Shown here: positions 17,597 to 29,266 of the stretch, piece after piece | Position numbering within the stretch: position 1 is the first letter of the stretch | Layout of the letters: each line of letters opens with the position of its first letter | Assembly (NCBI GenBank): GCA_029821875.1 | Contig: JALGXW010000014.1 | Location: forward strand, 62,001-126,000 | DNA: 64,000 nucleotides | Direction of reading: 5' to 3' | Source: Candidatus Hebobacterum abditum | GTDB taxonomy: Bacteria; Armatimonadota; Hebobacteria; Hebobacterales; Hebobacteraceae | Position numbers and translations under genes: made by a program | The notes under the pieces: generated by a model | The model's database searches: none | Told to the model about the DNA's origin: nothing | Seen by the model: the letters and a program-made list of their open reading frames with translations, nothing else

Positions 17597-17720
17597 TGCA
17601 ACCTCTCGGCCCGAATCGGGATCATCGGTATGACTGCGGTTGAGCGAGAGCGGCCGTGGGTCCGCGGCAACCAGCATGACGAACGCGAGTGAGGGCGAAC
17701 TCGTCGGGCTCACCGCGCGG
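17597..17720 (+). pseudogene. Remnant of an ECF sigma gene: promoter, leader and first codons only
   Basis: This stretch matches 20173-20296, the promoter and start of the intact sigma gene, at roughly 80-85% by eye without gaps. TGCAACCT at 17597 and the ATG at 17676 are 79 bases apart, exactly as TGCAACCT at 20173 and the ATG at 20252. The reading MTNASEGELVGLT parallels MTKATDGELVGLT of the intact gene. Similarity stops near 17716 and no sigma domain follows. It is a truncated duplicate that begins 7 bp after the TauE/SafE stop codon. Confidence 0.8.
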
Positions 17721-17802
17721 CCCCTCCCTCCCTCACAGGAAGCAGGCCGCGCAGCCTCCCGGCAGGACCGCGCCGTCGGCCTCACGAACTCGCGTGTATA
17801 GC

Positions 17803-19383
17803 ATGTCCCGCGGCCGCGAACCAGCCAGCAAACGCCGCCTGCTCGCGCGGATCGTTGTGATCGGCGCCGTGCTGGGCGCGGTCTGGCTCCTGGTCGGCGC
17901 GGCGCGTGCTAGGGTCCCTCCGCCGCCGCTGCCGATCCCGCACACGTGGACTCCTCCGCTAGACGGCGCGGCCGGGCTCGCGCGGGCGCGGGAGCAGGCG
18001 GCCGGCGCGAATGCGGTCATCTGCGTGCTCGACGCCGCGCGGGCCGATCACCTCGGCTGCTACGGCTACCCGCGCGACACCACTCCCACCATCGATCGGC
18101 TGGCGGAGGAGTCAGTGGTCTTCGACCGGCACTTCTGCCAGCACACCCAGACGAAGGGCTCCATCGCTTCGCTCTTCCTCTCCCAGTACCCGCACACCCA
18201 TGGCGCGCTCCGCCATAGGAGGCCGCCCCGCGACGCCTTCAGCATCGAACAGGGATTCCAGCAGGCCGGCTACACCACCGCGCTGTTCGCCTCCAATATG
18301 TGGGTATCGCCCGTGAGGGGCATGGGGCTCGGGTTCGACTGGGTGGTCGCGCCCGGGGTGGACGCTCGGAGCCTGGGGCCAGCGCCCGGGATGCAGCTTG
18401 GGATCCTGGGGTCAGCGCGCGGCGACGAGCCGCCCGGCGAATCCCTGAACAACCGGGGCCCCGAGGCCCTGCTCGCGCGCATCGCGCGCTGGCTGGAGGA
18501 GAAACCATCGGGGCCGTTCTTCGCCTTTGTCCACTTCCTGCCACCCCACCTCCCCTATGCCGCGCCCGACGAACTCGCCCGCGCGTTCGCGGGGGAGCGA
18601 CCCCCCACGTGGTGGAGGGGCCGGTTCCCTTTCCGCGAGGTGAGGGACGCCAACACCGCGGGGGACCACGCTCGCCCAGGCCCCGACCTCGTCAACCGCT
18701 ATGACGCAAATCTGCTGTGGGCGGATCGCGTGGTGGGCGAGCTGGTGGGCCTGCTGCGGCGCGCCGGCGTGCTCGACCACACGCTGCTGATCATCACCGC
18801 CGACCACGGCGAGACCTTCGGCGAACACGGCTTCAAGTGGCACCCCGCCTGCCCCTATGATGAGACCATCCGCGTGCCCCTGCTCCTCCGCTTCCCGGGC
18901 GACGAGCGGCCCGCGGGGCGGGTGGCCGCGCTCACCGAATCCATCGACCTGCTGCCCACGATCTACGAGCTGCTCGGGCTGTCCTACCCGACCGAGTCGG
19001 TCCAGGGGCGTTCGCTCTTGCCGCTCCTCACGGGGGAGCAGCGCGCCGTGCGCAGCTACGCGTTCTCTCTGACCGAGGGCGACCCGCCCTGCGCGGTCAT
19101 CCGCGGCGAGCGCTACAGCCTGCTGCTGTTCGAGGGCGGGAAGCTCCGGGCGCTCTACGATACCGAGGCCGACCCCTGGCAGACCCGAAACATCGCGGAC
19201 GAGCAGGAGGACCAGGTGCAGCGGATGCTGCAGGCCTTCGAGGAATACGCCCGCGCCCAGCGCTACCCACCGCTCCAGTATCTCGACCCCGAGGCGCCCA
19301 GCTTGCTGCCCGACGCGCCGCCCGAAGAGCCGCTGTCACCGGAAGTCCGCGAAGAACTCGAAGCCCTCGGCTACCTGAAGTAG
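17803..19383 (+). CDS. Sulfatase-fold (alkaline-phosphatase superfamily) membrane enzyme with Thr at the nucleophile position
   Basis: The protein has 526 residues with one N-terminal transmembrane anchor (about 13-34). The sulfatase fold shows DAARADHLGCYGYPRDTTPTIDRL, SLFLSQYPHTHGA, ITADHGETFGEHG and HPACPYDETIRVPLL. The usual C/S-x-P-S-R formylglycine motif is replaced by TKGSI (117-121): Thr for Cys, Gly for Pro, Ile for Arg. A formylglycine sulfatase is therefore unlikely. A Thr nucleophile is known in LtaS-type phosphoglycerol transferases of the same superfamily, so a phospho- or sulfo-transferase is possible. The ATG at 17803 is chosen because the preceding sequence is the sigma remnant. 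Confidence 0.78.
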   Translation: MSRGREPASKRRLLARIVVIGAVLGAVWLLVGAARARVPPPPLPIPHTWTPPLDGAAGLARAREQAAGANAVICVLDAARADHLGCYGYPRDTTPTIDRLAEESVVFDRHFCQHTQTKGSIASLFLSQYPHTHGALRHRRPPRDAFSIEQGFQQAGYTTALFASNMWVSPVRGMGLGFDWVVAPGVDARSLGPAPGMQLGILGSARGDEPPGESLNNRGPEALLARIARWLEEKPSGPFFAFVHFLPPHLPYAAPDELARAFAGERPPTWWRGRFPFREVRDANTAGDHARPGPDLVNRYDANLLWADRVVGELVGLLRRAGVLDHTLLIITADHGETFGEHGFKWHPACPYDETIRVPLLLRFPGDERPAGRVAALTESIDLLPTIYELLGLSYPTESVQGRSLLPLLTGEQRAVRSYAFSLTEGDPPCAVIRGERYSLLLFEGGKLRALYDTEADPWQTRNIADEQEDQVQRMLQAFEEYARAQRYPPLQYLDPEAPSLLPDAPPEEPLSPEVREELEALGYLK

Positions 19384-20172: not shown

Positions 20173-20209
20173 TGCAACCTTTCGACCCGGATTGGGATCA
20201 TTGGTATGA
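20173..20209 (+). promoter_or_regulatory. Putative ECF-type promoter of the sigma/BtrH-like gene
   Basis: TGCAACCT (20173-20180) has the GCAAC core seen in many ECF -35 elements, and about 16 bp later comes CATTGGTATGA, where the -10 would lie. The whole segment is conserved in the remnant at 17597. ECF factors often drive their own genes, so self-regulation is likely but unproven. Confidence 0.55.
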
Positions 20210-20251
20210 GGGCGGTCGGGCGAGAGCGGCCGTGGGTCCGGAGTAGGGAGC

Positions 20252-21874
20252 ATGACGAAAGCGACTGACGGCGAACTCGTAGGGCTCACCCGGGGCGGCG
20301 ACCGCGACGCCTACGGGGAGCTGGTGGCCCGCTATCAGGGCCACGTGTATGCCCTCGCCTACAGCCTCACGGAGAACTGGGCGGAGTCGCAGGACATCGC
20401 CCAGGAGACTTTCATCCGCGCCTACGTGAACCTCGACGGGCTCCGCGATCCGGAACGCTTCCCCGCCTGGCTGCGGCGGGTTACCTTCAGTGTGGCGATG
20501 AAGTGGCTGAAGGCCTACCGGCCGGGGCTGTTCCAGCAGCTCGACGGCCGGGTGGACCTCGACACCCTCGAGATCCCCGACTTCCGGCCGGGGCCGCCGG
20601 AGGTGGTGGAGAAGAGGGAGCTGGCCAGGGCCGTGCAGGGCGCCATCGGCGAGCTTCCCGCCAAGTACCGCGTGCCGCTGACGATGTTCCACCTCGACGG
20701 CCTCTCCTATCAGAAAGTCGCCGACTTCCTGGACATCCCGCTGGGCACGGCCAAGTCGCTCATCCACCGCGCCCGGGCGAAGCTCAAGGGCGCGCTGGCA
20801 GGCTACGCATCAGAGGAGGTCACTCCCATGGTTCAAGAGGTCTTCGACGAGCACCGGCTGCCGGAGGAGTTCGCGCAGAAGGTGCTGGATAATGTGCCGA
20901 CACTGGGTTGGGGGACGGGGCGCGAGTGCACCTTCGCGGGTGCGCTGGAGGCGGCGCTCACGCCCACCGACCATCCCTACAGGTACAGCGACCTGCTCGG
21001 CTTCACCGGCCTCGCCTTCCGTACGCGGTGGTTCTGCGGGGATGATGGGGCGCGGTGGTGCCCCTCCTGCGCGGTGGGCGAGATGGAGGAGGAGATCGCG
21101 GCGGTCGAGAAGGCGACCGGCTGGCCGCTGCGGGTGCACTTCCTACAGGGAGATGATGTGGCAAACGTGGAGCAGACCAGGACCGACATCGTCAAATCGA
21201 TCGACGAGGGCCGCGCGGTTCTCGCCTACGAGCCGGAGTTGAACATGGATGTGGTGTACGGCTACGAGCAGGGCGGGAAGATGCTGCTTCTGCGCGACTA
21301 CGCCAAGGGGGAGGAGCCGCTCCGGCTGTCGCCCTCGAAGCTCGGCTTCCTCATGTTGTTCATCGGTGACCGCGGGGAGGCAATGTCTCGGCGCGAGGCG
21401 ATCATCGAATCGCTGAGGATCGCGGCCCGCAACTGGCGCCGCGAGCGCGGACACGCAGGGCCGGGCGAGTACTGGTATGGGAGGGCCGCGCTCGAGCACT
21501 GGATGGCGGACATCGAAGGGGCGGAGGAGCTGTCGGAGGAGGATCTGGACCAACTGCGCTCGGTCACCTGGTGGAACTTCACCACCATACACGACGCGAG
21601 GAAGACTGCGGTCACGTACCTGAGGGAGATCGCGGAGGAACTCGGCGGCGAGGCAGTGGAGGCGCTGGGGCGCGCCGCGGACATCTACGCGGAAGAGGTG
21701 AAGCTGTTCGACGCGGCCGCGGCGGAGCCGCAAGTCTTCATCGGATCGGCCGAGGGATGGACCGACGATGCGGGCCGCCGCGAGCGAGAGGTCTTGACCC
21801 GAGCGATCGAGCTGGAAGAGAAGGCCATCGCGGAGATCGAGCGCGTGTTGGAGCAGTTGCCTGCCGATGGCTAG
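20252..21874 (+). CDS. ECF sigma factor fused to a BtrH-like C-terminal domain
   Basis: The protein has 540 residues against about 180 for a normal ECF factor. Region 2 is at about 10-85 (ARYQGHVYALAYSLTENW, QDIAQETFIRAYVNL, FPAWLRRVTFSVA). Region 4 is at about 125-185 (LPAKYRVPLTMFHLDGLSYQ, FLDIPLGTAKSLIHRARAKL). From about 205 comes a domain with GRECTFAGALEAAL, YSDLLGFTGLAFRTRWF, DIVKSIDEGRAVLAYEPE and a helical end. The next gene carries the same domain, which resembles BtrH_N plus DUF4872. The Cys in GREC could be catalytic or acyl-carrying. Extended ECF factors often use such tails as built-in regulators. The gene overlaps the next by 8 bp (ATGGCTAG), implying coupled translation. Confidence 0.82.
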   Translation: MTKATDGELVGLTRGGDRDAYGELVARYQGHVYALAYSLTENWAESQDIAQETFIRAYVNLDGLRDPERFPAWLRRVTFSVAMKWLKAYRPGLFQQLDGRVDLDTLEIPDFRPGPPEVVEKRELARAVQGAIGELPAKYRVPLTMFHLDGLSYQKVADFLDIPLGTAKSLIHRARAKLKGALAGYASEEVTPMVQEVFDEHRLPEEFAQKVLDNVPTLGWGTGRECTFAGALEAALTPTDHPYRYSDLLGFTGLAFRTRWFCGDDGARWCPSCAVGEMEEEIAAVEKATGWPLRVHFLQGDDVANVEQTRTDIVKSIDEGRAVLAYEPELNMDVVYGYEQGGKMLLLRDYAKGEEPLRLSPSKLGFLMLFIGDRGEAMSRREAIIESLRIAARNWRRERGHAGPGEYWYGRAALEHWMADIEGAEELSEEDLDQLRSVTWWNFTTIHDARKTAVTYLREIAEELGGEAVEALGRAADIYAEEVKLFDAAAAEPQVFIGSAEGWTDDAGRREREVLTRAIELEEKAIAEIERVLEQLPADG

Positions 21875-23018
21875 CAAAGCGCACGAGAGGAAGCGAGGGG
21901 CCGAGGACCCCATCACCAGGCGCAGCTTCCTGCAGAAGATGGGGATGGGCGCGGCCGCGCTGTCCATGGGCGTGCTGCCGGAGGGGGCCGCTGCCGCAAC
22001 GAACAGGCGGCGGGCCGACCAGAGAGAGGGGAGAACCATGAAAGTACCCATGAAGGTGGAGTACGAGTTCGTCTGGCTGTCCTGGGTGGCCTCGGCGACC
22101 GGCTGCCTGAAGGCCCTCGGCGTCGACTGTGGCCCTGCGGAGGTGGCCGGCTACTCGGGCTATGCCTTTATGCTCAATGTCCCCACAGGGCTCCATCCCT
22201 CCGGGCCGACCGCGTTCGACTGGGGCCTGCTCCATCGCGGCGTGTCGCTGTTGGGCCGGTCCACGCTGGTCTTCCACGGCGCCCACTGTCCCTGTGAGAT
22301 GAAGAGCGAGGCCGAGGCCAAGCGCGTTCGCGCGGAGATGCGAGCGGCCTACGAGATGGTGGAGAGAGAGATCGCCGCCGGGCGTCCCTGCGTTATCTGG
22401 GGAACTTATGATCCGGACTTCGGCATCGCCGTCGGGGTCGAGGATGACACTTACCTGGTGGAGACCTTCCGGCGCGGCACCGACGAGCCGCAGACTCCCA
22501 TCCCGTACGACGGGCTCGTCTGCCCCTCGGGCGCCTACGCGCTCGCCTTTCCCACCGCCATCGGGGTGCCCCGCCGCCAAGGAGACCGCGAGGCCCTCCG
22601 CCACGCGGTCACGATGCTCAACTACAAGCATGGCGACCCGCAGTACGCGAACGGCCAGGCGGGCTATGATCGATGGATCGAGAGCCTTGAAGGTGGCGAG
22701 GCCGAGCCCCATGGCAACAGCTACAACGCGCACTGCTGGGAGGAGGCGAGACGCTTCGCCCGCGACTTCCTCGCCCGCGTGTCGACGCGCAATCGCGACA
22801 TGTCGGACGCGCTGGCCCCGGCCATCGCCGCCTATGGAGAGGTCGTCGAGCCCCTCGACAAGCTGACCGACCTCTTTCCCTTTCCGGATAGAGACCGGAA
22901 GGTCGATGACCCCCAGGTCCGAGCCAAGGCCATCGAACACCTCCGCGCCGCCAAAGCCGCCGACACGCGAGCCGCGGCTGCGCTCACAGCGGCGGCCGGA
23001 GAGTGGCCGCCGGAGTAG
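21867..23018 (+). CDS. Tat-exported protein with the same BtrH-like domain as the sigma tail
   Basis: The protein has 383 residues. The N-terminus carries a twin-arginine signal (TRRSFLQKMGMGAAALSMG). The mature part shows ATGCLKALGVDC, YSGYAFMLNVPTG, EREIAAGRPCVIWGTYDPDF and GQAGYDRWIESLE, which line up one by one with GREC, YSDLLGFTGLAF, VKSIDEGRAVLAYEPE and GRAALEHWMADIE in the sigma C-terminal domain. The Cys in ATGC is the best candidate active residue. A strong internal ribosome site and ATG at 22038 could also give a cytoplasmic form. It could be the extracytoplasmic partner of the sigma factor. The function is not known. Confidence 0.75.
   Translation: MASKAHERKRGAEDPITRRSFLQKMGMGAAALSMGVLPEGAAAATNRRRADQREGRTMKVPMKVEYEFVWLSWVASATGCLKALGVDCGPAEVAGYSGYAFMLNVPTGLHPSGPTAFDWGLLHRGVSLLGRSTLVFHGAHCPCEMKSEAEAKRVRAEMRAAYEMVEREIAAGRPCVIWGTYDPDFGIAVGVEDDTYLVETFRRGTDEPQTPIPYDGLVCPSGAYALAFPTAIGVPRRQGDREALRHAVTMLNYKHGDPQYANGQAGYDRWIESLEGGEAEPHGNSYNAHCWEEARRFARDFLARVSTRNRDMSDALAPAIAAYGEVVEPLDKLTDLFPFPDRDRKVDDPQVRAKAIEHLRAAKAADTRAAAALTAAAGEWPPE
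22027..22040 (+). promoter_or_regulatory. Internal ribosome site and second start codon
   Basis: The segment AGGGGAGAACC followed by ATG at 22038 lies in frame just after the Tat leader and begins MKVPMKVEYEFVW. It is a better ribosome site than the one at the first start, so a second, signal-less product is possible. Confidence 0.5.
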
Positions 23019-23126: not shown

Positions 23127-25208
23127 CTAGAGGCACCAGATGGCCTTGATGGCGAGGCGGTTAACCCACTCTTCGGCATTGGGGTCGCCCACCACGACCA
23201 GCAGGTCCATGCCGCGCCGGAGCCGCTGGCGATAGGCCGCGTAGGCGTTGGTGTCCGTGCCGTGGCGCACGACCCGCGCGCTGGCTGTCTTCCCTTCGCC
23301 CACCTCGTAGGTCGTCTGAAGGACGCCCAGGCTGGCGGTCTCTGCGGGGACGACGTTGCCCTCATCGTCGAGGTCGGCGGCGGTGACGCGCTCGAGTCCG
23401 ATCCGCATCGACCACCGCGGGGCGAGGCGGAAGGCCTGGTATATCTCTGCGAAGCGGTAGTCCTCGCCATAGTGCTCTCCCCAGACCCACCTCAGGCCGC
23501 CCCCTCGGTACATGTCGTTCCGGTTCCAGCCGAACCGGAGATATCTCTCTTCGCTGTCGAAGCCATCGCGCACACCGGTCTCGGCGCCGACCCGGAGTCT
23601 CGTGCCCGCCCGCCAATCGACATCGTACCCGACAGCGAGCCGCCGACGCGGGCCTTGCTCGGAGTGGCCGTAGTTGTAGCGAAGGTCATACTCCCTCTCT
23701 TGCACGCTGCTGTCGTCGTAGGAGATCTCGTAGTCGAAGTGATAGTAGGTGTTCCTGACCCCGGTCTCGTACACGAGCCCGTCATCGGCCCGGAACTCGG
23801 GGCCGATCTGCTCGACGCCGACATGCCAGTCCAGCCCCTGCCGCCGGCGCTCCCCGACCTCATAGGTGACCATGGTGTCATCGCCGCCCTCGCCCTGGGT
23901 GTGGCTGCCAAACAGGTCGCCCCAGACATAGCGGTCGACGTCCTCTCCCGGCCAGTCCCAGCTCCCGAACACCGAGTAGGCGCGGTTGTCCGGCTCTCCG
24001 GGCACGCGCCGGTCGACGCCGTTGAAGCCGATCCCACCCGTGGTTCCGAAGTGGTGCTGGTAGCTGCAGACGAAGTGGTTCTCGCCTCCGCGCCGGTAGG
24101 CGTCGAGCACCCCGAACCGCTCCGCGCCGACGGTGCCGAAGGCCTTCGCCCCGAGATCGAAGTCCTCCACTCTCCTGCTGTAGAAGAGGTTGGACCAGGG
24201 GAAGTAGCCGCTCCCCTCCTGGAAGAAGGGCCGGGGATCCGGCAGCCACCGCTCGGTGTAGGTGAAGTCGATCGTCTCCACCACGTCCTCAATGTTGCTG
24301 AAGTCGGGGTTGGCCGTGGCGAGGGCCACCACGCCGTTGGAGAGGGTGCCTCTCGCGTCCAGGCCCGCGGTCAGAAGCTCTCTCTCCCCCTCCTCTTCCG
24401 ACAGCACGGAGAGCGCGTAGGGCATGAGCACATACCGGAACCGCACGGGAGGCGTCTCGAGGCCCGTCCATCGAGCGCAGTTCTGCGTGTCGAAGACCTT
24501 GGCGAAGCAGGCCGGCCAGAGGGAGCGGTCCTCCTCGCGGGCCAGCACGCGGGCGAAGTCGAAGCGAAAGCAATCCTGGCCGTCGGGATAGCGGAGGATA
24601 GACTAGGGGATCTCTATCTCGGCCGTCCAGCCTCCCTCATCGATGGCCGCCGCCGCCCGCCAGTCGCCTCGCCACTCGATCTTCTCCGAGGTGCCGCCCG
24701 GCACGTAGTCCCACTGGGTGCCGGCCGGGTTGACGCGGAAGGAGTAGAAGTTCTGGCTGTTGTTCTCCACGTCCAGCCAGAACTGCACCTGGTCATCCAG
24801 GCCGAGGCCTCCCTGGCGCTTCTTCTGGTCGCACCGGATCTCGGAGGGCCTGGCGTCATGGCAGCGGAAGGCGACGTAGATCGCCCGGGAGTCATAGCAC
24901 AGCCAGGCCTCGGTGCGCTCGTGCTCGGGCGCGTCGATCCGCTGCCGCCAGAAGCCGTCTATGTGAGTGGCCTGCTCCCAGCAGGCGTCGTCGAGGACGC
25001 CGTCGATAACGGGCGGCTCGGCGATCGCCGCCGCCGGGACCGAGGGCGGGCCGGTTGCGGCCTCGCCGGCCGTCTCCACGGCCTTGCCCACCTCCACAGC
25101 TTCGCCGACCTCCTCCGCGGCCCAAAGAGGCGCGGTCGCAGAGGCCGCCAGCACGGCACACATGATTGTTGCCAGCAAAGCAGTGAGTCTCATTCTCGAA
25201 TCGGACAC
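23127..25208 (-). pseudogene. CBM9-like/DUF5916 outer-membrane protein interrupted by an in-frame TAG
   Basis: This is a paralogue of the gene at 25590, with 693 codons. A signal peptide is followed by a CBM9-like domain (PPVIDGVLDDACWEQATHID, KTEAWL-like RTEAWLCYDS) and then a long beta-barrel-type region ending VNRLAIKAIWCL, a C-terminal aromatic end typical of outer-membrane barrels. Codon 202 (24603-24605) is TAG in the context EIEIP-stop-SILRYPDG. The paralogue has Phe there (EIPFSILRYPDG), so TTC became TAG. The frame is intact on both sides. It is either a recent pseudogene, an error in sequencing or assembly, or a readthrough codon. The GTG at 25208 has AGGAGGGG 9 bp upstream. Confidence 0.85.
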
Positions 25209-25589: not shown

Positions 25590-27620
25590 CTACAAACACC
25601 AGATGGCCTTGATGGCAAGGCGGCTGACCCACTCCTCGGCATTGGGGTCTCCCACCACAACCAGCAAGTCCATGCCGTGGCGCACTCGCTGCCGGTAGGC
25701 TCCATAGATGTTTGTGCTCGAGTCGCCGGAGACCAGCCGCGCGCTGGCGCTCCGCTCCTCGCTGATGTCGTAGGTCGTGGTGATGACAAGCTGGCGCGAC
25801 CACTCGGGCGGGGTCACGTTTCCCTCATCGTCGAGGTCGGCGGCGTAAATACGCTCGAATCGCAGCTCGCCCGACCATCTCTCGGTCGGGTGGAAGGCCT
25901 GGACGAGGCTCTGATAGCGGAAGGGCTGGCTGTAGTGTTCTCCCCAGTGGAAGTCGATCCGGCCGGTGCGGCGCATGTCTTTCCGGTTCCACCGGGCGGC
26001 AATGTAGTGTGTCGCTTCGTCGAAGCCGTCTCTCTCGCCGCCGCTTATGCCGAGCCACATGCTCCACCCGCTGCGCCAGTCTAGCTGATGGCCCAGCCAG
26101 CCGGAGCGGCGCCGTCCGTCCTGCGACATCCCGGCGTCGACCCAGAGGACCCACCAGCTGCGCTGCACGTGGCCCTCATCGTAGGTCCGGGCGTACTCCA
26201 TATTGGCAGAGAAGTTCCTTACGCCTGTCTCCGGAACGTACCCGTCGTCGGCCTGGAACTCCAGTCCGGTGGCCTCGTATCTGGCGAGCCAGCTGAGCCC
26301 TTGGAGACGAGACTGCCTGAGGCCGACGTTCAGGCGCGAGTCGTCTCCGCCCTCGCCTTGAGTGTGCGACCAGGCATGGCTGAGATGATAGTGGCGATTG
26401 CCCCCCTCGAAGGGGCGACTCCAGTAGCCGCCGAGCTGATATGCCTGGTTGTGCGGCTCATCGGGGAGGCGTGTGTCTGTGCTCCCCACACTCAGACCGG
26501 CAGTCGTGCCGATGCGGTGTCCGTACTCCCACACAAGATGGTTCTCTCCGCCGCGGCGGTAGGTGTCGAGCACGCCGAACTGGTGGCGGCCCAGTGTGCC
26601 GAAGGCCTTGGCTCCCAGATCGAAGTCTTCGATCCGTCGGCTGTAGAAGATGCCTCCGGGGAAGTAGTACTCACCTTCCCGGAAGAAGGGACGATATTCC
26701 GGGAGATGGCGCTCGACATAGGTGAAGTCGATGGTCTCCACGACATCTTCGAGGTTCCGGAAGTCCGGGTTGTAGGTGCCGAGGCCGACGACTCCATTCG
26801 GGAAGGTCCCCTTCACATCGAACCCCGCGGTCAGCGGCTCCCGATCCTCCTCGTCCTCCGACAGCACAGACAGCGCGTACGGCATGAACGTGCACCGGAA
26901 AGGAACCGGCGGCGTTGTCAGACCGGTCCAGCGCGCGCAGTTGTCCGTGTCCCAGACTCGGGCGTACGCGGGAGGCCAGGTGCACCAGTCTTCCTGGCGG
27001 GCGAGAAAGCGAGACAGCACGACGCGGAAGGTATCCTGTCCATCCGGGTAGCGGAGGATCGAGAACGGTATCTCGATCTCGGCCGACCATCCCTCCTCGT
27101 CCACGGAGCCGGCGGCGCGCCAGTCGCCTTTCCATTCGATCTTCTCAGATGTCCCGCCGGGCACGTAGTCGTACTGCGTGCCCGCCGGCGTGACGTTGAA
27201 GTTGTACCAGTTCCTGCCCGTATCGTTCACGTCAATGCCTACCACCACGCGGTCGTCATCCCAGATGCGGCCCTGACGCTTCTTCTGGGCGGCGCGAATC
27301 TCTGAGGGCTTGCTGTCGTGACAGCGGAAGGCGACATAGATCGCCTCGCCGTCGTAACCAAGCCAGGCCTCGGTCTTCTCTATCGGCGATTCGTCCTCGC
27401 GCTCGCGCCAGAAGTCGGTCATGTGCGTCGCTTCCTCCCAGCAGGGGTCATCGAGGAGGCCGTCGATGACCGGCGGCTCGGCCACCTGGACAGCGGGAAT
27501 CGAAGGTGGATCTGTGTCCGTTTGCCCCTGCGCCCCGCTCGCGGGCGTAGAAAGGACTGATGCGGCCGCTACCAGTGTGAGCAAACAGATGGCACTTCGT
27601 ACGACACGGCTTGCGTTCAC
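25590..27620 (-). CDS. CBM9-like/DUF5916 outer-membrane protein (intact paralogue)
   Basis: The protein has 676 residues. A signal peptide (about 1-33, ending ASGAQG) is followed by a carbohydrate-binding family 9-like domain (PPVIDGLLDDPCWEEATHM, EKTEAWLGYDGEAIYVAF). Then comes a long region with amphipathic strands (WARYEATGLEFQADDGYV, SARLVSGDSSTNIYGAYRQR) ending SRLAIKAIWCL, a barrel-type C-terminus. DUF5916 proteins are thought to be outer-membrane barrels, sometimes linked to polysaccharide or peptide use. The GTG at 27620 is preferred because GAGGGG precedes it. It lies upstream of its broken paralogue on the same strand. Confidence 0.85.
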   Translation of the reverse strand: MNASRVVRSAICLLTLVAAASVLSTPASGAQGQTDTDPPSIPAVQVAEPPVIDGLLDDPCWEEATHMTDFWREREDESPIEKTEAWLGYDGEAIYVAFRCHDSKPSEIRAAQKKRQGRIWDDDRVVVGIDVNDTGRNWYNFNVTPAGTQYDYVPGGTSEKIEWKGDWRAAGSVDEEGWSAEIEIPFSILRYPDGQDTFRVVLSRFLARQEDWCTWPPAYARVWDTDNCARWTGLTTPPVPFRCTFMPYALSVLSEDEEDREPLTAGFDVKGTFPNGVVGLGTYNPDFRNLEDVVETIDFTYVERHLPEYRPFFREGEYYFPGGIFYSRRIEDFDLGAKAFGTLGRHQFGVLDTYRRGGENHLVWEYGHRIGTTAGLSVGSTDTRLPDEPHNQAYQLGGYWSRPFEGGNRHYHLSHAWSHTQGEGGDDSRLNVGLRQSRLQGLSWLARYEATGLEFQADDGYVPETGVRNFSANMEYARTYDEGHVQRSWWVLWVDAGMSQDGRRRSGWLGHQLDWRSGWSMWLGISGGERDGFDEATHYIAARWNRKDMRRTGRIDFHWGEHYSQPFRYQSLVQAFHPTERWSGELRFERIYAADLDDEGNVTPPEWSRQLVITTTYDISEERSASARLVSGDSSTNIYGAYRQRVRHGMDLLVVVGDPNAEEWVSRLAIKAIWCL

Positions 27621-27745
27621 GCCATTCCCCTCGCCACTCGATGTCTTCACATGTCCCACTAACAGAGACGCGTGAAGTCGCCAGAAGGTTCCCGCGCCCG
27701 CCGATTCCCTGGCGCCTTGTGCGAGAAGGCTCTACTCAGCTCAGG

Positions 27746-29266
27746 TCACTGGTTCATGCTCACCGGGCCGGAGACGTTGCTGATGGAGGTGCTGCCGCCG
27801 GCAGCGTCGATGGTCAGCTCGCCCTCCACATTTGCGACCGCTATGTCTCCCCCGGCGCTGTTGGCGGTGACTGACCCGGAGATGTCCGAGATAGAGATGC
27901 TGCCACCGCCGGTCTCGGCCACCAGCAGATCACCCTCGACGTCACTGACGCTTATGTTGCCGCCGCCGGTCTTCGCAGTTGCGGCCCCCTCCACCTTCGA
28001 GACCGAAATGTCGCCGCCGCCGCTTTCGGCAGTGAGCTCACCCTCTACGCCGCTGGCGTTCACATTCCCGCCGCCAGTGTTCGCGCTCACGGCTCCCTCG
28101 ACATCTGAGACCGAGATGTCTCCCCCGCCGCTGGTGAGGGTGGCCTCGCCTTGGACGCCGCCGACCGATATGTTGCCGCCGGCAGTGTCCGCCCGCACCT
28201 CGCCCTCGATCTGACTTAGGCTGATGTCCCCTCCGCCGGTCTCCGCCTTCACCGGTCCTCCGATCTCGCTCACGGAGATGTCGCCGCCGTCGGTCCTGAG
28301 CACGAGCTCGCCGGTGAGAGAGGCGGCCGCGATGGAGCCGCCTTTCGTGTGAGCGCTGATCTCCGCCTCACACGGGATCTCGAACCGGAACGTCAGGTCA
28401 TTGGTCGCGTCGGGGTTGTCCGGGTCGCCGAGCGTGAACCTGTGCTGTCCATCTTCCTGATCGCCCGACCAGGGTACTTCCTTCTCCCACCCGTCGGGCA
28501 GAGGTTCGCCCTTGTCGACCGGCTTGCGCACGATCAGGCGAAACTCCCCCTCCTCCGTACCGGCGAGTTCGAGGTTCCCGGTATGGCATGTGATCGCCAA
28601 GTCAATTCTGTCATCCCCGACCGAGTACGAGGTGAGCACCGCCTCCTCGCCGCGCTCGCGGCGCCTGTGTGCCGACGGCGGATGCGGAGGCTTGGGGGGA
28701 CGAGGAGGCTTTGGGGGCCGCGGGGGGCGCGGACCGTGCGGCCAATCTTCCCCCTCGTCCGCGCTGTCGGAGAAGGTCCCGTAGTTCTCCTCGCACTTGT
28801 CCTCGAGGATGGCTATCAGCTTGCCGGGCCCGCTCACCGTGCCGTAGTTGGCGAAGCTGCCGATCTTCCGTTCGAGGAGTTCCTTCGGAACATCATCGCG
28901 CACGATCAGGTGGCCGAAGTTCGCGTAGGAGGTGCCATCCTCCATGCGCTCCAGCAGGTGATGGCTCAGCTTGGCGGTGGTGAAGTTCTCGCGGGTGGGA
29001 TCGCCGACCGCGTGTGACCCGCCGAACCTTCCGGCCAACCTTCCAACTACATGGCGTTGAATCTGTTGGGCGAGGGAGCGGCCGAACTGGCCCCAGTTCA
29101 CGCTGCGGGTGTGGGGTGGTCCGGCCTCCAAGCCTTCCTGCTCGGCGTCGCCCCGCGCCTCGCCACGGTGGCTCTCCTCGACGGCATTCAGCAGCTCACC
29201 CGCCTGCTCGACGGTGATGCGGCCCTCCTTCAGCATCTCCAGAATCCTCGTCCGTTCCCCTTCCAT
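27746..29266 (-). CDS. SHOCT-like/DUF4097 beta-helix repeat protein (LiaX/YvlB-like)
   Basis: The protein has 506 residues. The N-terminus (ILEMLKEGRITVEQAGELLNAVEE) is the SHOCT-like helical hairpin found at the start of YvlB/LiaX-type proteins. A Pro-rich linker (PRPPRPPKPPRPPKPP, about 190-207) follows. From about residue 305 there are eleven repeats of about 18 residues of the form TGGGDISVSDVEGAVSAN, a DUF4097 right-handed beta-helix. LiaX is known as an envelope-stress sensor in Firmicutes, so an envelope-linked role is plausible. No signal peptide or membrane helix is seen. It follows the DUF2089 regulator with a 54-bp gap and is probably controlled by it. Confidence 0.8.
   Translation of the reverse strand: MEGERTRILEMLKEGRITVEQAGELLNAVEESHRGEARGDAEQEGLEAGPPHTRSVNWGQFGRSLAQQIQRHVVGRLAGRFGGSHAVGDPTRENFTTAKLSHHLLERMEDGTSYANFGHLIVRDDVPKELLERKIGSFANYGTVSGPGKLIAILEDKCEENYGTFSDSADEGEDWPHGPRPPRPPKPPRPPKPPHPPSAHRRRERGEEAVLTSYSVGDDRIDLAITCHTGNLELAGTEEGEFRLIVRKPVDKGEPLPDGWEKEVPWSGDQEDGQHRFTLGDPDNPDATNDLTFRFEIPCEAEISAHTKGGSIAAASLTGELVLRTDGGDISVSEIGGPVKAETGGGDISLSQIEGEVRADTAGGNISVGGVQGEATLTSGGGDISVSDVEGAVSANTGGGNVNASGVEGELTAESGGGDISVSKVEGAATAKTGGGNISVSDVEGDLLVAETGGGSISISDISGSVTANSAGGDIAVANVEGELTIDAAGGSTSISNVSGPVSMNQ

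Follow-up and report, generated by a model that had tools for sequence, protein, structure and literature searches.

An ECF sigma factor with a BtrH/AziU3-fold tail, and a predicted exported relative of that tail encoded by the next gene, in Candidatus Hebobacterum abditum

Why would an ECF sigma factor carry a large C-terminal domain that has a relative, with an export signal, encoded by the very next gene? The question is raised by two overlapping genes in a window of 64,000 nucleotides from Candidatus Hebobacterum abditum (contig JALGXW010000014.1, positions 62,001 to 126,000), which is the whole stretch of DNA analysed here. A sequence-only reading had regarded the two domains as BtrH-like twins that could sense or process the same ligand on the two sides of the membrane. 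The features of the gene pair are as follows:

20252-21874, + strand: P0001, 540 aa, ECF sigma factor with a C-terminal BtrH/AziU3-fold domain
20321-20785, + strand: sigma regions of P0001, region 2 at residues 24-86 and region 4 at residues 126-178 (PF04542, PF08281)
20798-20896, + strand: linker of P0001, about residues 183-215, resembling linkers of ECF paralogs with different tails
20897-21871, + strand: tail domain of P0001 (~335 residues; about residues 216-540), with a papain-like half and a helical half
21867-23018, + strand: P0002, 383 aa, Tat-signal protein whose domain is homologous to the P0001 tail
21912-21995, + strand: Tat signal peptide of P0002, residues 16-43 matching TIGR01409, kept in genome G195 of another genus
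22038-22040, + strand: putative internal start of P0002, an in-frame ATG preceded by an SD-like stretch (GAGGGGAG), at the same place in G195

The layout proposed from the letters alone was borne out in its coordinates, reading frames, sigma regions 2 and 4, Tat signal and gene overlap, in which the start of P0002 lies inside the end of P0001 over 8 bp (ATGGCTAG, 21867-21874). Both sigma regions scored above cut-off, with E values of 1e-11 for region 2 (PF04542) and 5.5e-15 for region 4 (PF08281). The export signal claimed for one of the copies was also recovered: P0002 scored 18.6 bits against TIGR01409 (curated cut-off 16.7), and TatC was found in all five genomes searched, among them the present one (G000). 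With a twin-arginine signal and TatC in the same genome, P0002 is a predicted Tat substrate. Pfam and NCBIfam scans returned nothing useful for the P0001 tail or the body of P0002, and PADLOC gave no defence-system match.

A start at 22038 would possibly yield a form of P0002 that lacks the signal. P0002 might then be made in two forms, one exported and one cytoplasmic, the latter acting directly on P0001 in the manner of an anti-sigma factor or co-sensor. Both the window and G195 have the SD-like stretch before an in-frame ATG, in keeping with such an arrangement, but the same stretch also encodes conserved residues and was seen in two genomes only, and Pfam and NCBIfam scans of P0002, the one gene directly after P0001, found no anti-sigma domain. 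We consider the two-form arrangement very unlikely.

The pairwise BLASTP comparison of the P0001 tail with P0002 was marginal (E = 0.001). A profile of 29 tail-type domains, built without P0002 and without its paralog L005, found P0002 at an E value of 7.4e-20. Conversely, a profile of 27 P0002-type domains, which excluded the P0001 tail and included a single ECF fusion (L038, itself P0002-type), found the P0001 tail at 9.5e-18. Judged by these profiles, the similarity is beyond chance and the domains are homologous but old. They shared 17% identity and were separated by the deepest split of a midpoint-rooted tree of 103 rows (138 before near-copies were removed; quick tree search), which places them in two deeply split subfamilies. 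Lying on opposite sides of that split, the two do not descend from a recent local duplication; a local tandem duplication was ruled out as the origin of the pair, and the description of the domains as twins had to be abandoned. Three of the motif pairs named in the sequence-only reading did align (LLGFTGLAF/VAGYSGYAF, SIDEGRAV/EIAAGRPC, and GRAALEHW/GQAGYDRW), but the pair GREC/ATGC did not. The supposedly shared Cys was a misalignment, with no P0002 Cys opposite Cys226 of the tail, and the alignment removed a shared catalytic Cys from the case for two-sided chemistry.

Structure models clarified what kind of domain this is. The AlphaFold models had a pLDDT of 93.1 and a pTM of 0.92 for the P0001 tail, and 84.6 and 0.88 for P0002. 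The top Foldseek match was AziU3 for both (1.6e-7 for the tail, 5.6e-7 for P0002); below 0.001 the tail also matched CcbD and CtaG, and P0002 also matched CtaG. In VIA comparisons with AziU3 (8gs1_D), the tail reached Z 19.9 (rmsd 4.3, 294 residues) and P0002 reached Z 18.4 (rmsd 5.3, 288 residues). CcbD and CtaG came next (Z 17.4-18.4 with the tail, 14.5-17.3 with P0002). Behind this enzyme group, the rows dropped to Z 13.6 and 11.9, respectively. In both proteins, the match to AziU3, CcbD and CtaG spanned the whole domain, papain-like and helical halves alike. On the strength of these models, both domains have a BtrH-like acyltransferase fold, and the earlier hunch of a BtrH relationship was right as far as the fold is concerned. 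The N-terminal half also resembled peptidase C39 and other papain-like peptidases (VIA Z about 10-12.5 for the tail, lower for P0002), and PMC10318531 places BtrH_N near the C39 and C70 peptidases; unlike papain-like peptidases, the window domains have an extra helical half and, by sequence, no complete triad. Pfam C39_2 reached a best E value of 0.052, in two of 26 family members, and a PDB sequence search with the tail alignment gave nothing useful (best E 0.12).

Comparison with BtrH_N supported the fold and a remote link, but not plain membership: PF14399 matched neither protein, with no match at E ≤ 1 for full P0001, the tail alone, P0002 or P0002 from its internal start. Across the phylum, PF14399 scored above its cut-off in five of 151 genomes. 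When 17 BtrH_N-matched proteins were searched with our two profiles, 11 matched one or both below 1e-4 and six did not; in this search L089, which passes the BtrH_N cut-off, matched the tail profile at 3e-20. Of the four clear BtrH_N proteins, L084, L086 and L087 matched neither profile, and L085 matched the P0002-type profile at 7.5e-6. The window domains resemble the BtrH_N (PF14399), CcbD, CtaG and AziU3 enzymes in whole-domain fold and, through L089 and others, by a remote sequence link; they differ from them in having no PF14399 match and no His at the expected place, and in being sigma-fused or exported.

The domain family proved to be widespread. Of 291 genomes in the phylum, 42 matched the tail query and 45 the P0002 query, and beyond Armatimonadota the domain occurred in Poribacteria, Verrucomicrobia, Planctomycetota, Lentisphaerae, Zixiibacteriota, Hydrogenedentota and KSB1 (23 named loci). 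Most copies were solitary, many with signal peptides by eye, and others stood in tandems of two or three. Among 72,556 plasmid records, there was no match to the P0001 tail, which ruled out a plasmid origin, and one match to P0002 (29%), in Paenibacillus cellulosilyticus. A standalone P0002 relative in this species (L179:5647-6882) comes from a named isolate and is a possible experimental handle. In L067, L121 and L122, from Armatimonadota, Zixiibacteriota and Hydrogenedentota, an N-terminal module (PDLGxLKxQAKxLLK...) precedes the domain in the same protein; L121, the one scanned, had no Pfam match at E ≤ 0.01.

Does the tail still work as an enzyme? CcbD has a Cys-His-Glu triad and works through a Cys thioester (PMC12945683), and the CtaG structures include C11, H128 and D144 variants, according to their entry titles. 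In the model of the P0001 tail, Cys226 lies at a helix start where the Cys of papain-like enzymes sits, and it was kept in most tail-type rows. A working enzyme, in which acyl transfer or another reaction at Cys226 takes place and the activity or the acyl-enzyme state controls the sigma factor, would fit this conserved, papain-like placement and the thioester chemistry of CcbD (PMC12945683). The other triad positions speak against it. With positions mapped by fold and spacing rather than by coordinate superposition, model columns 127-132, where the strand expected to hold the His begins, contained no His in any of the 28 aligned rows; a few rows had a single His in columns 124, 126 or 133, and the Asp column varied. 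Some relatives carry N, S, T, V or L at the Cys position, and P0002 has no Cys there. As far as the alignment goes, the Cys-His-Asp/Glu triad of the BtrH/CcbD/CtaG acyltransferases is incomplete in the tail and lacks its Cys in P0002, and we regard a working enzyme as improbable. Given the His missing at its expected place, the tail is most likely a binder of a putative small molecule, not a Cys-His-Asp catalyst, and given the incomplete triad, ligand binding is its likeliest function; against this reading, the tail Cys could serve in other chemistry. A D-A-R motif in the helical half was kept across the tail/P0002 family. In CcbD, the sugar is bound partly via Arg263 and Asp264 of the adjacent subunit (PMC12945683), and our guess, by position only, is that the D-A-R motif corresponds to these residues.

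We found 11 loci with ECF fusions, of which nine could be assessed, G196 C12 and the Poribacteria locus L111 being at or near a contig end. A Tat-signal homologue followed the ECF fusion directly at two of these nine loci (G000 and G195) and was absent from this place at the other seven (G192, G000 C99, G197, G222, G241, G235, and G196 C53); in G241, a homologue lay about 3 kb from the fusion on the opposite strand. The pair therefore recurs in one other genus but is not general, and its absence at seven of nine loci implies that the exported partner is dispensable for such a tail. In G196, contigs C7 and C53 carry relatives of the genes flanking the window pair, and both end before the position of the pair, so that its absence in this genome is uninformative. 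The G195 pair had the same order, strand and overlap region as in the window, with a start that is possibly TTG. In the codon comparison with G195, the sigma part had 91 identical, 60 synonymous and 39 non-synonymous codons (n = 190), the tail 130, 72 and 118 (n = 320), the P0002 signal 27, 6 and 23 (n = 56), and mature P0002 192, 55 and 33 (n = 280), 46 codons at gaps or N being left out. These counts indicate that P0002 is under stronger constraint than its ECF partner, and that mature P0002 is strongly constrained.

These results bear on another account, in which P0002 is a mere output gene of P0001 that does its own work outside the cell, with no role in tail-based sensing, their shared family being coincidental. 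The breadth of the family (the 42 and 45 genomes above), the placement of tail and P0002 in different subfamilies, and the solitary state of most relatives of either kind all agree with it. However, two divergent family members adjoining with an 8-bp overlap, kept in two genera, seem beyond chance, and P0002 evolves more slowly than the tail. We consider this account possible but rather doubtful. Set against the first interpretation of the locus, the fold, the Tat signal and the existence of the pair elsewhere are supported; a shared catalytic Cys and the twin status are not, and the pairing is not general.

The ten ECF-fused domains in the tree fell at five places, and five label changes are required by the starred branches. 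One common origin for the fusions was ruled out, since the nine tail-type fusions as one clade were rejected (p-AU 1.7e-49). A clade joining the window-type with the G222/G241/G235-type fusions was not rejected (p-AU 0.135), so that, despite the five label changes, four separate origins is the safer number. One of the fusions, in G196 (L076), combines an ECF factor with a P0002-type domain. This gene (L076:2461-3951) sits between relatives of window gene 27746-29266 and a DUF5916 gene, and the window has no ECF gene at the equivalent spot. In the window, the CBM9/DUF5916 gene at 23127-25208 (- strand) appears to be split into two ORFs (24606-25208 and 23130-24548), through a frameshift or an assembly error; an adjoining paralog (25593-27659) is one 689-aa ORF.

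The sigma part of P0001 belongs to a large set in its own genome. A sigma-plus-linker query had 19 matches in G000 at E ≤ 1e-4 (L127-L145), nine of which had more than 200 residues after sigma-4 (L127, L128, L129, L130, L132, L135, L139, L140, and L144). L128 was 74% identical to P0001 in sigma and linker and had a different tail, without a Pfam name, and the tail of L129 consisted of HEAT repeats. The nine long tails of 19, together with the same core and other tail in L128, support the idea of swappable tails on a common core. The long tails were of several kinds (HEAT, winged-helix-like, and unnamed), several of them after a similar linker.

Which promoter might such a factor read? Three further features of the window are relevant here:

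20173-20209, + strand: putative ECF-type promoter of the operon, TGCAACCTTT-N16-CATTG-N3-TGA, from footprint and exact pattern search
17597-17721, + strand: duplicated ECF promoter plus first codons of P0001 (125 bp), upstream of the sulfatase gene and also found in G196
17803-19383, + strand: sulfatase gene (PF00884 and SGSH_C) behind the duplicated promoter, a candidate regulon member

The motif TGCAACCTTTyG-N14-CATTG-N3-TGA was common to the DNA upstream of four ECF genes (P0001, the counterparts in G195 and G192, and the own paralog L128), with identical spacing in all four regions and poorly alignable DNA around it. A second group of ECF fusions (L130, G197, G196) had AACCTCT-N16-CAGTG upstream. 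The pattern GCAACCTTT-N16-CATTG-N3-TGA was searched in five genomes with up to three mismatches, giving 23 matches: four exact, one at one mismatch, one at two, and 17 at three. The reversed pattern, used as a control, gave eight matches at the same threshold, and the 17 three-mismatch matches are mostly noise. All four exact matches lay upstream of ECF genes (G000, G195, G192, and own paralog L128). The one-mismatch match (G196) and the two-mismatch match (window 17598) both precede a sulfatase gene. Local alignment of 17597-17721 to 20173-20296 scored 142, whereas none of 295 random pairs scored above 56. The window copy belongs to a 125-bp duplication before the sulfatase gene, which looks like promoter capture. 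The sulfatase gene adjoins a TauE/SafE exporter gene.

The motif is promoter-like and stands before ECF genes of three genera, and recognition of its own promoter by P0001 is putative. The -10 element of ECF promoters is CGTC-like, and CATTG as the -10 half departs from it, which counts against P0001 as the reader. The motif could instead be read by paralogous ECF factors that share this promoter, and the copy before the sulfatase, being a duplication, could be neutral.

Our preferred explanation, which we hold at about even confidence, is that P0001 is a one-component ECF factor that acts on its own promoter, has a pseudoenzyme tail for ligand binding and is made together with an exported relative. 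Binding of the putative ligand would alter the contact of the tail or linker with sigma-2 and sigma-4 and thereby switch RNA polymerase binding, with control presumably running in that direction. Active P0001 would transcribe its own operon from the AACCTTT-N16-CATTG promoter, so that P0002 would also be made, and it may drive the nearby sulfatase gene through the duplicated promoter copy. P0002, as the exported member of the sister subfamily, most likely binds a related compound outside; that it binds the same ligand as the tail is a guess. A bolder version, which we consider improbable, is a switch that senses one putative compound outside and inside the cell: the exported relative would capture or buffer it outside, and the sigma-borne pseudoenzyme would read it inside. 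Both proteins would derive their domain from a natural-product acyltransferase fold, which lineages would have joined to ECF factors on about four or five occasions. Because a sulfatase gene stands behind the duplicated promoter, the signal would perhaps come from sulfated sugars.

C-terminal extensions are established sensors in ECF41 and ECF238, and the known extensions act via conformational change driven by a ligand or partner; ECF42 has a conserved neighbour whose domain occurs elsewhere fused to ECF factors (PMC8999054). Like the factors with extensions treated there, P0001 combines an ECF core with a C-terminal domain; by Pfam and NCBIfam, no anti-sigma factor is evident in the next gene, though one may be encoded at a distance. 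Its tail, with a BtrH/AziU3 fold and ~335 residues, is unlike the extensions named in section 3.5 of PMC8999054, and its exported relative in the next gene sets it apart from the factors with known extensions in that source. No such fusion was described in the titles or abstract starts of the open-licence literature searched, and an ECF group with this type of tail may already stand in the main ECF classification without a domain name. If our explanation is true, one-component ECF factors would have a new type of sensor, a large pseudoenzyme of the BtrH/CcbD/CtaG fold that was recruited repeatedly and, in this genome, exchanged on related sigma cores for other tails, HEAT repeats among them. 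The candidate promoter and the natural swap pairs would make it possible to study C-terminal control of ECF factors, and the explanation would provide a first testable role for a widespread family that has no Pfam name in the members scanned.
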